Shown here piece by piece: positions 50,425 to 55,075 of a DNA stretch of 55,498 nt; within the stretch, counting starts at the first letter, position 1; the number at the start of each line of letters is the position of its first letter. Source of the DNA: a bacterium (GTDB lineage Bacteria > Patescibacteriota > Minisyncoccia > Phycocordibacterales > UBA2100). Location of the stretch: assembly GCA_030674455.1 (NCBI GenBank), contig JAUSGQ010000028.1, forward strand, positions 1-55,498, in the 5' to 3' direction. The position numbers and the translations under genes were made by a program. The notes under the pieces are model-generated. The model searched no databases. It had not been told where the DNA came from and saw only the letters and a program-made list of their open reading frames with translations.

Positions 50425-50496
50425 GCCGGAGTAGTTCAACGGCTAGAACGAGGGACTCATAAACCCTAAACGGTGGTTCGACTCCACCCTTCGGCA
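50425..50496 (+). tRNA. tRNA-Met(CAT)
   Basis: GCCGGAG-TA-GTTC...AGGGA-CTCATAA-ACCCT..GGTGG-TTCGACT-CCACC-CTTCGGC-A; one A-A mismatch in the anticodon stem. Confidence 0.85.
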
Positions 50497-50542
50497 CAAC
50501 TTCGCTTCACTGGCTCGTGAAGCTACGAAGTGCACGGCACTG

Positions 50543-50667: not shown

Positions 50668-51354
50668 ATGGCACCGATGTTTCGTGGAGTGAACCAGGAT
50701 TTTTTCAAACGCTGGTCATCCGAGATGGCCTACGTTCTAGGATTCTTTGCCGCCGATGGAAACATGATTCGCAATAAACGCGGCGCACACTTCATTGCTT
50801 TTTATAGCAATGATAGAGGATTGCTTGAGAAGGTGAGAGCCACTCTGGTATCGGACCACAAAATCGGGAAACGTGTGTACAAATCTAGTAAGAAATCCAC
50901 TACGTATCAACTACAACTCTGAAGCAAGGTTATGTTCTCGGATTTAAGCAAGCTCGGTTTCACTCCAAGAAAGAGTTGGCGCATGAAATTACCAACAATT
51001 CCAGAAGAACTATTTAGACATTTCGTGCGAGGATACTTCGATGGGGACGGATGCGTGTACTTTAAGAAGCATCATGTCAAAGATAGAAAGAAGATGAGAT
51101 GGGTATTTTCTTCGAGATTCACCGCTGGCTCCCGAACGTTTCTTGATTCATTTCACGAGAGGTTGCATTCTCATGGATTGAAAAAGGGATTTGTAACCTG
51201 CAAAAGGCAAGGCAGAGGTTTCGACCTAGTGTTCAGTCATAGCGATAGTGTTGCGTTATTCCATCTGATGTACGATACTATGCCCGACAGCGGTTTGTAT
51301 CTTGTCCGAAAGTTTAAGAAGTTTGTCAAGGCACTACAGACTCTGTATGGGTAA
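50668..51354 (+). pseudogene. LAGLIDADG homing endonuclease interrupted by one in-frame TGA
   Basis: MAYVLGFFAADGNMIRNKRG...TYQLQL*SKVMFSDLSKLGF...RHFVRGYFDGDGCVYF; both LAGLIDADG helices present in the same frame on either side of the TGA. Confidence 0.85.
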
Positions 51355-51359
51355 AACAT

Positions 51360-51433
51360 GCGGCCGCAGCTCGACCTGGTGGAGCGCTTCCCTGTCACGG
51401 AAGAGGATGCGGGTTCAAATCCCGTCGGCCGCG
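51360..51433 (+). tRNA. tRNA-Asp(GTC)
   Basis: GCGGCCG-CA-GCTC...CTTCC-CTGTCAC-GGAAG...GCGGG-TTCAAAT-CCCGT-CGGCCGC-G. Confidence 0.92.
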
Positions 51434-51580
51434 CAAGCGAGACAAAAGGTCACCCGCGTGGTGGCCCTTTGACTTGCTCTAGGAGCACAGCCGGATTTGA
51501 ACCGCTGGCTGCCGGCCCCGAAGAGGGGCCATAAGTTTCGAGTTGCACCAGCGACTCGAGGCAAATCCCGTCGGCCGCGC
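51434..51580 (+). repeat. tRNA-3'-end-associated structured unit, Asp copy
   Basis: aaatcccgtcggccgcgc (51417-51434) repeated at 51563-51580; T-arm complement ccggatttgaacc at 51491-51503; hairpins 51514-51530 and 51539-51558. Confidence 0.75.
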
Positions 51581-51588
51581 TTAGGAAA

Positions 51589-51616
51589 AATAGACTGGCT
51601 TCGGCCAGTCTATTTT
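51589..51616. terminator. Intrinsic terminator
   Basis: AAAATAGACTGGC-ttcg-GCCAGTCTATTTT. Confidence 0.85.
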
Positions 51617-51644
51617 GACGAGATGCTGGCCGGACTTGAATCGC

Positions 51645-52049
51645 CTACGGACACTTATTATTTTTCTCTACTATTTTCTTTATTTCATCCACTTCATCTT
51701 CCACTTTCTGTACCATCCCGCGCACCTCGTCCAACTCCTCTTTTTCCGTTTCTATTTCACCCTCTGTTTTTTCCGCGAGTTTTTTCTCGCGCTTAATTCC
51801 GGCAATTATGATGCTGTCTCCGATAAAGAAGGAAACGAACGCCCCGACTATTAGGAGAATAAGCACGCCAATTATTGTTGAAACTGGACCGGTCATAAAC
51901 GCGAACAAATCAGCCGTATGCCACACACCTCGCCAAAAGAGAATAATGCCGACGCCCGCAATAAATGCATAGATGATGGGGTAATGGCTCAAGTGGTTGC
52001 GCACATTGTCCTCTAGGCGGTCAAAAAATTTATCCAGGACTTTAAACAT
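51645..52049 (-). CDS. Membrane protein with C-terminal coiled coil
   Basis: Two TM segments then KREKKLAEKTEGEIETEKEELDEVRGMVQKVEDEVDEIKKIVEKNNK. Confidence 0.65.
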   Translation of the reverse strand: MFKVLDKFFDRLEDNVRNHLSHYPIIYAFIAGVGIILFWRGVWHTADLFAFMTGPVSTIIGVLILLIVGAFVSFFIGDSIIIAGIKREKKLAEKTEGEIETEKEELDEVRGMVQKVEDEVDEIKKIVEKNNKCP

Positions 52050-52140
52050 AGCGTTAAATTATATCGCGTTTCTGTAATTGTACAGCATGGCATATAGTGC
52101 GGCGAACAGTAGAGCAGGCTATGTGTGGTATCATGGTCTG

Positions 52141-52731
52141 ATGATAGACCAATCTATGCTAGTGGAACTGTATTTAAAGAAGCAACTATCATCCTCGGCA
52201 ATAGCTGATCGCTTGGGTTGCTCTGAGCATAAAGTGAATTACTGGCTTGCAAAACACCAGATAAAAAAACGGAGCATCTCTGACGCGATATATAGGATGT
52301 ACCATCCCAATGGAGATCCGTTTCTGTTTCAACCACCTCGCACGATGGGGGATGGTATGTTGTACGGGCTGGGGTTAGGATTATATTGGGGCGAGGGTTC
52401 AAAAAGAGGCAAGGGTGGCGTTAGACTTTGTAATACGGATGTTCGATTGATAAAGAAATTCATTGAGTTTTTGTACAAGTTTTTTGGGATTGAGAAAGAC
52501 AAGCTAAAATTTGGCTTACAAATCTTTAAAGATCTTTCTCGAGATGCGACCATGCAATACTGGATGCGCCAACTAAAGATCAAGAAGAATCAATTTTATA
52601 AGGTTATCGTGTCTAAAGTCAGGGGGGAGGGAACATATAAATATAAGTCCGAGTATGGGGTGCTGACTATACACCTTAATAATTCCAGACTAAAAGAATT
52701 AATATGTAAACACATTGATAATATTGATTAA
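52141..52731 (+). CDS. HTH protein with a LAGLIDADG-like domain (putative free-standing homing endonuclease)
   Basis: Resolvase-like HTH (LVELYLKKQLSSSAIADRLGCSEHKVNYWLAKHQI), then GLGLGLYWGEGSKRGKGGVRLCNTDVRLIKKFIEFLYKFFGI, reminiscent of LAGLIDADG folds. Confidence 0.55.
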   Translation: MIDQSMLVELYLKKQLSSSAIADRLGCSEHKVNYWLAKHQIKKRSISDAIYRMYHPNGDPFLFQPPRTMGDGMLYGLGLGLYWGEGSKRGKGGVRLCNTDVRLIKKFIEFLYKFFGIEKDKLKFGLQIFKDLSRDATMQYWMRQLKIKKNQFYKVIVSKVRGEGTYKYKSEYGVLTIHLNNSRLKELICKHIDNID

Positions 52732-52765: not shown

Positions 52766-53022
52766 GCCGATGTAGCTCAGTTGGTAGAGCACGTTCTTGG
52801 TGGGCCGCAAGCCCTGCCCATGCTCGCGGCAACGCGAGCATGAATCCCGAATAACGGTCAATATCCTTTCTAAGGACAAGACCGTGGCGTCAAACGCCCG
52901 AACGACTGACAAGGGTTCGCCTCAGGCGAAAAGATACAGTCTAGCCCTCCGATAATAGAAAGTGGAAACGGAGGTATAAGCGAAGAACGAGGTCTCCGGT
53001 TCAATCCCGGACATCGGCTCCA
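52766..53022 (+). tRNA. tRNA-Thr(GGT) interrupted by a group I intron
   Basis: 5' exon 52766-52801 (GCCGATG..CGTTC-TTGGT); 3' exon 52983-53022 (AA-GAACG..CCGG-TTCAATC-CCGG..CATCGGC-T-CCA). Joined anticodon loop is TTGGTAA. Confidence 0.85.
52802..52982 (+). other. Group I intron (about 181 nt) in tRNA-Thr
   Basis: GACTGACAAGGGTTCGCCTCAGGCGAAAAGATACAGTC resembles the group I P3/P7/P8 core; 5' exon ends in U, intron ends in G. Confidence 0.8.
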
Positions 53023-53170: not shown

Positions 53171-54661
53171 AATGCAAATGCAGGAATCCATAAATACATA
53201 GTGGAGTGCTTTGCCCCGCCCACCCATGCGCGCACAAGTAGTCCATCCCTCGCCGTTTTTGAGGAACATTGTAAAACGGCAGGGATGGCTCCCCGAACGA
53301 AATGCGGTATGATATTTGAGATATGAAGTATTTTCTCTACGCTAGAAAATCTACCGACGTTGAAGACAAACAAATTTTGTCTATCGAAGCGCAGTTGACG
53401 GAATTGCGCGCGCTCGCGAAACGCGATGGGCTAGAAATCGCCGAGGAGTTTGTCGAAAAGAAATCCGCAAAGATTCCGGGCCGAGCGATATTCAACGATA
53501 TGATGTCTCGGATTCAACGCGGTGAAGCGCAAGGAATTATTTGTTGGAAAATAGATCGGCTCGCGCGAAATCCGGTGGACGGCGGACAAGTGCAGTGGTT
53601 GTTGCAACAAGGCGTTATCAAACATATTCAAACGCACGACCGCTCGCACTACCCAAATGACAATGTGCTGATGATGTCAGTCGAGCTTGGCATGGCGAAT
53701 GAATATGTGCGCCAACTTTCCGCAAACACCGCTCGTGGTCTGCGACAGAAAGCGCGGCAAGGGCTATATCCCGGCCTAGCTCCCATTGGATATTTGAACG
53801 ACCCGCGCACCAAAACTATCCGCGTCCACAAGAAAAATGCCGTGCTCGTGCGCGAAATGTTTGAACGGTACGCGAGCGGCAGCGCGACGCTCGATACTCT
53901 CGCGGTGATGTTGGAGAACGCGGGTGTGATGTCCAAAGGAAATCGCCGCGTTCACATCTCGCGCATTTCGTTCGTTTTGCAAAATCCGTTTTACTACGGC
54001 CACTTCCGCTACGCGGGCGAAGTGTACGAGGGCAATCATTCGCCGCTCATTTCAAAATCGCTGTACGACAAAGCGAACGTGGTACTTCGCTCGCGCGGCC
54101 GAACGCTCGCGGTCAAAACCGATCCCGCGCCATACTGCGGACTCTTGCGGTGCGACTTCTGCGGCATGGGCATCACGGCCGAAGTGAAAGAGAAGCACCA
54201 GTTGAACGGCAACGTCCATCACTACACTTACTACCGTTGTACTCGCAAGAACAAGGCCGTGAAATGCAAAGAAGCGCCGATGCGAAGCGAGGTCTTGGAC
54301 TCGCAACTCTCGGCGCTCCTTGGCGAGTACGCCATGCCGCAAGAATGGATATCGCCTTTGTCAGCGATGCTCGATACAGAAGCGGCTAGCGCCTCTAAAA
54401 CCGCGACGGAGGCCGTTCAAGGACTGCGGGACAAAGTTTTTGATATTTCTAACAAATTTGAACGTCTTACGGACTTGTACGTTGCCGAAGATATCGAACG
54501 TGAGGATTATTTGTCCCGCCGTCGCGCTCTCATGAGCGAGCGCCGGACGATTGAGGAGCAAATCGTCCGTCTTGAACGATCCCCCGCCGCGTGGGTTGAA
54601 CCTGTCAGAAACTGGATACAAGACGCTTCGCGTCTTGATGAAATTAGAAAATCAGAAGACA

Positions 54662-54794
54662 TCCCCTCCAAAAAATCCCCCCTCCAAAAAATTTTCGGAT
54701 TGAACCTCTCCCTCCACGCGCGCGAAGCGCGCGGAACGCCCATTTCTCCATACGCGGCGCTTTGCGCCGCGCGAATTTCGGCCTCTGAAAAGCC
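54662..54794 (-). repeat. Right copy of the ~134-bp inverted repeat
   Basis: Reverse complement GGCTTTTCAGAGGCCGAAATTCGCGCGGCGCAAAGCGCCGCGTA... aligns to 53037-53170; encodes the recombinase C-terminus. Confidence 0.85.
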
Positions 54795-54808
54795 ACTCTG
54801 TTTAACGT

Positions 54809-54889
54809 TGGTGGAGCCAAGGAGGATTGAACTCCCCAATCCGAGTGCTAACCACGGAGTGCCTCACCAGAGGTGGCCCCTTGGTCTCC
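54809..54889 (-). tRNA. Degenerate tRNA-like sequence, anticodon uncertain
   Basis: Minus strand GGAGACCAA...GGGAG-TTCAATC-CTCCT-TGGCTCC-A-CCA; good T-arm and CCA, bulged acceptor, irregular anticodon arm. Confidence 0.5.
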
Positions 54890-54914
54890 ACAAAGAATAT
54901 TATGACATACAAAC

Positions 54915-54944
54915 AAAAATCCGAGGCAGTGCCTCGGATTTTTT
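54915..54944. terminator. Bidirectional intrinsic terminator
   Basis: AAAAATCCGAGGCA-g-TGCCTCGGATTTTTT. Confidence 0.8.
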
Positions 54945-55075
54945 GGGAGCACATTTCGCACTCCGTGGTTAGCAGTCGTAGTATATGCTACTTTCTTTCA
55001 AGAGTCAAGGATTTGTGGGGATAGTGTTTAAACCTAAAAGAGGAGAAACCTTAAGAAATATGCTAGTATTGCCCT

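Follow-up and report, generated by a model that had tools for sequence, protein, structure and literature searches.

What interrupts the anticodon loop of a tRNA-Thr gene in this tiny-genome patescibacterium, how would the insert leave the transcript, and by which route may it spread between genomes? Based on analyses of the window, i.e. the whole stretch of 55,498 nucleotides, and comparisons to 97 relatives, we conclude with high confidence that a short group I ribozyme without an ORF interrupts the tRNA-Thr(GGU) gene after U36, and we predict that this 181-base RNA very probably removes itself. The features are collected in Table 1.

Table 1 Predicted features of the interrupted tRNA-Thr(GGU) gene and its upstream ORF, in window coordinates
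Feature	Position	Strand	Description
Putative free-standing homing endonuclease ORF	52078..52731	+	Likely start 52141, 196 aa; N-terminal HTH and a domain with an invariant GxGLYxGEG-like motif
tRNA-Thr(GGU) 5' exon	52766..52801	+	Nucleotides 1-36, GCCGATGTAGCTCAGTTGGTAGAGCACGTTCTTGGT; GGU anticodon (34-36) at the 3' end
P1	52799..52818	+	GGU36 followed by GGG (52799-52804), with CCTGCC (52813-52818); U36 pairs with G52816; extension pairs covary
Predicted group I intron	52802..52982	+	181 nt, after U36, ORF-less; starts with GGGCC, ends with AAGCG (terminal G)
P2 hairpin	52819..52842	+	CATGCTCGCG/CGCGAGCATG; compensatory change in 8 of 9 pairs
P3 5' strand	52846..52848	+	CCC pairs with GGG (52913-52915); pseudoknot with P7
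P4 enclosing P5	52854..52885	+	P4 ACGGTC (52854-52859)/GACCGT (52880-52885), nearly invariant; P5 TCCT/AGGA, covaries
P6	52886..52898	+	GGCGT/ACGCC; covariation in 4 of 5 pairs
P7 enclosing P3 3' strand, P8 and J8/7	52904..52941	+	P7 GACTG (52904-52908)/CAGTC (52937-52941), invariant; P8 TTCGC/GCGAA, covaries; J8/7 AAGATA
P9	52946..52974	+	CCTCCG/CGGAGG; covariation in 5 of 6 pairs
tRNA-Thr(GGU) 3' exon	52983..53022	+	Nucleotides 37-76, AAGAACGAGGTCTCCGGTTCAATCCCGGACATCGGCTCCA; CCA encoded

Joining of the two exons yields a complete cloverleaf with a GGU anticodon in the loop TTGGTAA, and ARAGORN reports tRNA-Thr(ggt) on the joined flanks, in agreement with the exon assignment of a preliminary description made from the sequence. 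On the window itself, the interrupted gene is neither called by ARAGORN nor matched by the Rfam tRNA model. Both splice sites are fixed by the relative G011, in which the exons are contiguous at 100% identity and the intron is lacking; the junctions are unambiguous, because exon 1 ends in T while the intron ends in G, and the intron starts with G while exon 2 starts with A. This intronless allele confirms as exact the extent (52766-53022), the 181-nt length and the placement after position 36 that had been described. The remaining tRNA-Thr genes found in the organism's own genome carry TGT and CGT anticodons and are both intact, and a second GGT gene was not found in this 66-contig draft of 97.8% estimated completeness, in which one could be missed. 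The interrupted gene is the cell's tRNA-Thr(GGU), the only one found for the GGU anticodon in the draft; since no other was found, splicing must work for tRNA-Thr(GGU) to exist. As a separate observation, the one tRNA-Met gene found in the draft is an elongator (50425-50497), and tRNA-fMet is missing, perhaps interrupted or in a gap; a search with a congener's gene as query found no intron-bearing tRNA-fMet, which shows little.

The structure of the insert was derived without Rfam, by de novo covariation, because the Rfam group I intron model RF00028 misses the window intron and 20 orthologous introns. Besides the window intron, the alignment comprised 19 introns of relatives with 69-97% identity over the gene (20 introns in total). 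RNAalifold predicts P1, P2 and P4-P9 from it, with 51 pairs, 34 of them with compensatory double changes; P3 was added as a pseudoknot, giving 54 pairs and 35 with double changes. In this structure 95.2% of cells are paired, as compared to 36-43% with the partners slid by 1-3 columns, and the covariation score is 0.477, versus 0.156 +/- 0.011 after shuffling and no more than 0.115 with slid partners. P3 and P7 are paired in full (100%) among the 20 aligned introns. P3 consists of three pairs only, for which CCC/GGG, CTC/GAG and TCC/GGA change together in a wider set, and P4 and P7 hardly vary, hence they have no covariation support of their own. Taken together, a group I core of P3-P8, with P4-P6 and the P3/P7 pseudoknot, is present in the predicted structure.

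Several details of the core agree with what had been noticed beforehand. The P7-like element proposed in the preliminary description is recovered as P7 with its joining segment, the stretch J8/7-P7' reading AAGATACAGTC, with a single-base difference to AAGAUAUAGUC, the consensus of RF00028. The U preceding the intron, expected to form a G-U pair in P1, does so in the predicted fold, with a U.G wobble at the 5' splice site in 20/20 introns, all of which likewise end in the anticipated terminal G. As U36 pairs with G52816, placing GGU opposite GCC, the intron guide GCC would read the anticodon. That the insert is a chance arrangement is contradicted by the folding z-score of the window intron (-5.7), by the presence of the same intron at the same site in 20 of the 97 relatives and by the difference in pairing between the named and the slid structures.

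The RF00028 search that the preliminary description had suggested gave a different outcome from the one expected of a group I intron: the window has no match in gathering mode or in e-value mode, even at permissive settings, and neither do the 20 orthologous introns of relatives (e-value mode covered 19 of the 20 loci). Over the same 97 genomes, RF00028 detects group I introns in 66, 47 above cut-off. The gathering threshold is a detection proxy and no defining property of group I introns, and the miss of the tRNA-Thr introns is a limit of the model's reach. A covariance model made solely from the 20 tRNA-Thr introns (R1) gives 197 bits on the window intron, itself part of the model. Run on loci brought in by RF00028, R1 scores 22.3 bits (E 1.6e-5) at L111:2922-3148, where RF00028 gives 50.8 bits, above cut-off; 17.6 bits at L119 (RF00028 61.8 bits); and 28.8 bits at L080, an intron in an apparent tRNA-Ser (RF00028 45.4 bits, E 1.5e-10). 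Group I membership is hence supported by the structure together with members common to R1 and RF00028, and the interpretation as a group I intron put forward in the preliminary description gains from the covarying core, the pseudoknot, the U.G pair, the terminal G and these shared matches. Removal by proteins, as for archaeal BHB-type introns, or excision without ligation, i.e. an intervening sequence that is no ribozyme, would be compatible with the position of the insert, which in the anticodon loop is close to the canonical site of protein-based splicing, and with the RF00028 result; however, a covarying group I core with a P3/P7 pseudoknot, a universal U.G pair and a terminal G are unexpected of a BHB intron, R1 links the insert to Rfam-recognised group I introns, and the tRNA introns so far described from bacteria belong to group I (PMC4033280). 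We therefore consider a protein-removed insert highly improbable.

For the group I ribozyme, we infer a guanosine-initiated two-step self-splicing from the general chemistry of such introns. The pre-tRNA would fold, whereupon an external guanosine bound in P7 would attack after U36, kept in position by the base pairs of the anticodon GGU with GCC, the guide. Once released, U36 would in turn attack behind the terminal G, and ligation of the exons would give mature tRNA-Thr.

How far the element extends beyond this genome was assessed using R1 and a core-motif scan. Over 381 genomes sampled across Patescibacteria, R1 yields 17 strong matches (at least 110 bits, the window's included), all 17 in tRNA-Thr(GGU) after position 36 as judged by junction analysis or reading. 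The core-motif scan covered 85,462 named species and found at least 113 stretches, with selection for P7 making it silent on P7 variation. The 80 matches listed are nearly all from Patescibacteria, comprising Kaiser-, Taylor-, Yanofsky-, Nomura-, Moran-, Wolfe-, Uhr- and Saccharibacteria, among others, and every one of the 80 matches R1. Candidatus Kaiserbacteria RIFCSPHIGHO2_02_FULL_49_16 (L126), from the same genus as the window's organism, has a copy that is 97% identical. After deduplication, 123 of 128 loci have a clean junction, with introns of 175-243 nt (median 194), the T before and the G at the end of the intron being search criteria for this set; the anticodon stem comes in 19 versions among these loci, with pairing kept in every one, and no sizeable ORF was found inside the intron. 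On these matches, the tRNA-Thr(GGU) intron is a recurrent element across Patescibacteria, where this tRNA is a common host. The earlier impression of tRNA-Thr as an uncommon host thus stands as far as the classic bacterial tRNA hosts are concerned, which are tRNA-Leu, tRNA-fMet, tRNA-Ile and tRNA-Arg (reviews include PMC4033280 and PMC8450103), but fails for this phylum.

Within the genus, the intron is found in 13 of about 52 genomes while many congeners have an uninterrupted gene, a patchy presence indicating that it is often gained or lost. Such sporadic occurrence could also be expected if the intron were genuine but decayed and the tRNA-Thr(GGU) gene dead. Yet the core is invariant and the exons are perfect, the draft yielded no second GGT gene that would replace this one, and the intron is 93-96% identical to those of the closest relatives as compared to 78-81% for the flanks, suggesting that it is conserved or has recently spread rather than decaying; a dead gene is accordingly very unlikely.

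Outside this setting, a Niastella populi contig (L147) carries the same intron in tRNA-Thr (169 bits), next to an ORF that resembles tyrosine recombinases. A general Bacteroidota intron was considered and rejected, since among 118 genomes of the Niastella family a single one has this copy, i.e. a single transfer or contamination. In an Oscillospiraceae MAG (L125, 6585-6770), R1 gives 101 bits between non-tRNA flanks that look protein-coding, and the match looks like the same intron lineage in another host gene. RF00028 introns of relatives at L094-L097, L101, L118, L107, L108, L112 and L116 have other tRNAs as hosts, apparently tRNA-Asn-like (after CTGT) and tRNA-fMet, several of them with homologs of the ORF upstream of the window's tRNA-Thr divergently upstream.

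That ORF, which is unannotated, ends 34 nt before the tRNA-Thr gene, and its family is linked to the intron. Counting homologs within 400 nt at loci with enough sequence, which are not phylogenetically independent, one is located upstream of tRNA-Thr(GGU) at 41 of the 120 loci with the intron and at 0 of the 24 without it (Fisher p 2.7e-4); within the genus, the figures are 4/13 and 0/15 (p 0.035). These homologs are mostly 35-70% identical and usually lie within 90 nt of the tRNA. At about 20 loci the ORF overlaps the tRNA by 10 nt, with its stop codon formed by T8-A9-G10 of the tRNA. In the relative G048, the flank (51562-52083) aligns at 81% and the tRNA and intron at 93-100%, whereas the ORF is missing; judged from this alignment, the ORF is a discrete insert relative to G048. 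Among the ORF-homologous matches in relatives, 15 of 89 have a group I intron no more than 500 nt away. All 40 other homologs examined, from the top of the list, have a tRNA gene within about 600 nt, downstream in 31 and then nearly always within 115 nt, an adjacency with a chance of the order of 1e-40 under a uniform model. In 55 of 57 cases, a protein and the one most similar to it are next to tRNA genes of identical type, in part because some of them are orthologs in one genus. Two further homologs in the organism's own genome (G000), on contigs C36 (L304) and C60 (L313), immediately precede the uninterrupted genes for tRNA-Ile(TAT) and tRNA-Val(GAC). On the other side of the tRNA-Thr gene, a large serine recombinase (Resolvase, Recombinase and zinc ribbon domains) at 53323-54972 starts 300 bp downstream, and this region is possibly an integrated element.

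As to what the protein is, the N-terminal HTH, detected in 24/24 family members (best E 5e-9), is common to phage HNH endonucleases, and the near-invariant residues of the family include a GxGLYWGEG motif that recalls LAGLIDADG. PF14528 gives sub-threshold matches in 5 of 24 members (best E 0.0077). AlphaFold models of the whole protein and the C-terminal domain are confident (pLDDT 87 and 91), and a PDB fold search with both returned no significant match, while PDB sequence searches with the ORF gave HTH-level or chance matches only. The best structural match in the viral library BFVD is an endonuclease (E 8e-4), and a profile comparison of the family with the two-motif LAGLIDADG_3 family found no link. 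The label LAGLIDADG was not adopted, given the fold searches of the PDB. The product is probably a free-standing homing endonuclease, of a fold unconfirmed as LAGLIDADG. This idea is supported by a parallel: in several relatives, a two-motif LAGLIDADG_3 gene (E down to 7.5e-15) lies directly upstream of tRNA-Asp(GTC), and at L111 the tRNA-Asp following such a gene has a group I intron after U35. The window has its own two-motif LAGLIDADG_3 gene (50668-51354), separated by 5 nt from the tRNA-Asp(GTC) gene that follows at 51360; it has one in-frame TGA (50920-50922), while the copies of relatives are open.

We tentatively propose, at slightly less than even confidence, that the intron spreads with the help of the upstream protein as a free-standing homing endonuclease. 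The protein would cut intronless tRNA-Thr(GGU) genes, and repair would copy the protein gene together with the intron. More tentatively still, the loci may represent a cellular form of collaborative homing at several stages of mobile-intron assembly. It is speculation that the anticodon arm, an inverted repeat with the intron site near its centre, would suit a dimeric enzyme. Against this mobility step, the upstream gene is missing from two thirds of the intron-bearing loci, most protein homologs lie beside tRNAs without an intron, and PDB searches do not identify the fold as LAGLIDADG. The protein may instead be a regulator of tRNA loci or a splicing helper (maturase) and no homing endonuclease, a possibility that we regard as serious if somewhat doubtful: an HTH domain, homologs beside many, mostly intronless, tRNA types, nearest neighbours sharing the tRNA type and the lack of a recognised nuclease fold in the PDB would all be in agreement with such a role, but presence or absence as a discrete insert between close relatives, ten homologs upstream of RF00028-type introns in opposite orientation, the kinship of the HTH with phage HNH endonucleases, the endonuclease match in the viral library and a true two-motif LAGLIDADG gene in the same kind of position before tRNA-Asp argue for the homing endonuclease.

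The intron of Azoarcus tRNA-Ile(CAU) belongs to group IC3, measures about 200 nt, is ORF-less and interrupts the anticodon loop. It shares with the window intron these size, coding and position features, a 3-bp P1, a guide that reads the anticodon and the U.G at the splice site; the host tRNA differs, however, and the window intron has a P3 of only 3 bp and is missed by RF00028. The Azoarcus structure is cited in PMC3984707. Other bacterial tRNA group I introns likewise occupy the anticodon loop, but differ in hosts and positions, and the associated ORF is here outside the intron, upstream of the tRNA. A report of cyanobacterial group I introns of 22-49 nt in tRNA-Arg, tRNA-Gly and tRNA-Lys (PMC5733544) was rejected as precedent, because introns this short have no room for a group I core. 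For tRNAs of Patescibacteria, group I introns have already been reported, in a 2025 preprint cited in PMC12641178 and, by brief mention, in PMC8172020. The likeness is in phylum and kind of element, tRNA-Thr may be included, and the tRNA-Thr(GGU) intron is a further case. CPR rRNA genes have group I introns with LAGLIDADG endonucleases (PMC11270868), from the same phylum, but in an rRNA host, with the endonuclease encoded within the intron and often recognised by RF00028. One such intron is in the organism's own genome: at L001 (1103-1242, contig C59 of G000), an RF00028-like intron, sub-threshold at 33.5 bits, lies in an apparent 16S rRNA gene and is accompanied by a LAGLIDADG-like ORF. In phages, collaborative homing (review: PMC3984707; F-CphI: PMC6083498) similarly involves an ORF-less group I intron beside a free-standing endonuclease gene, putative here, yet in phage protein genes rather than cellular tRNA genes.

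In conclusion, as ARAGORN and Rfam both miss the intron, genomes of a very large bacterial group can seem to be without tRNA-Thr(GGU) although they have it, and a covariance model from the tRNA-Thr introns repairs this missed annotation. As a minimal natural ribozyme with an anticodon-reading guide, the intron would serve well as a model of splicing. Of greater interest, if new, is the protein family linked to tRNA genes. Should it be a tRNA-targeting endonuclease, the long-debated origin of mobile introns would become directly testable at loci that present the protein with the intron, the intron alone, the protein beside intronless tRNAs of other types, or neither.
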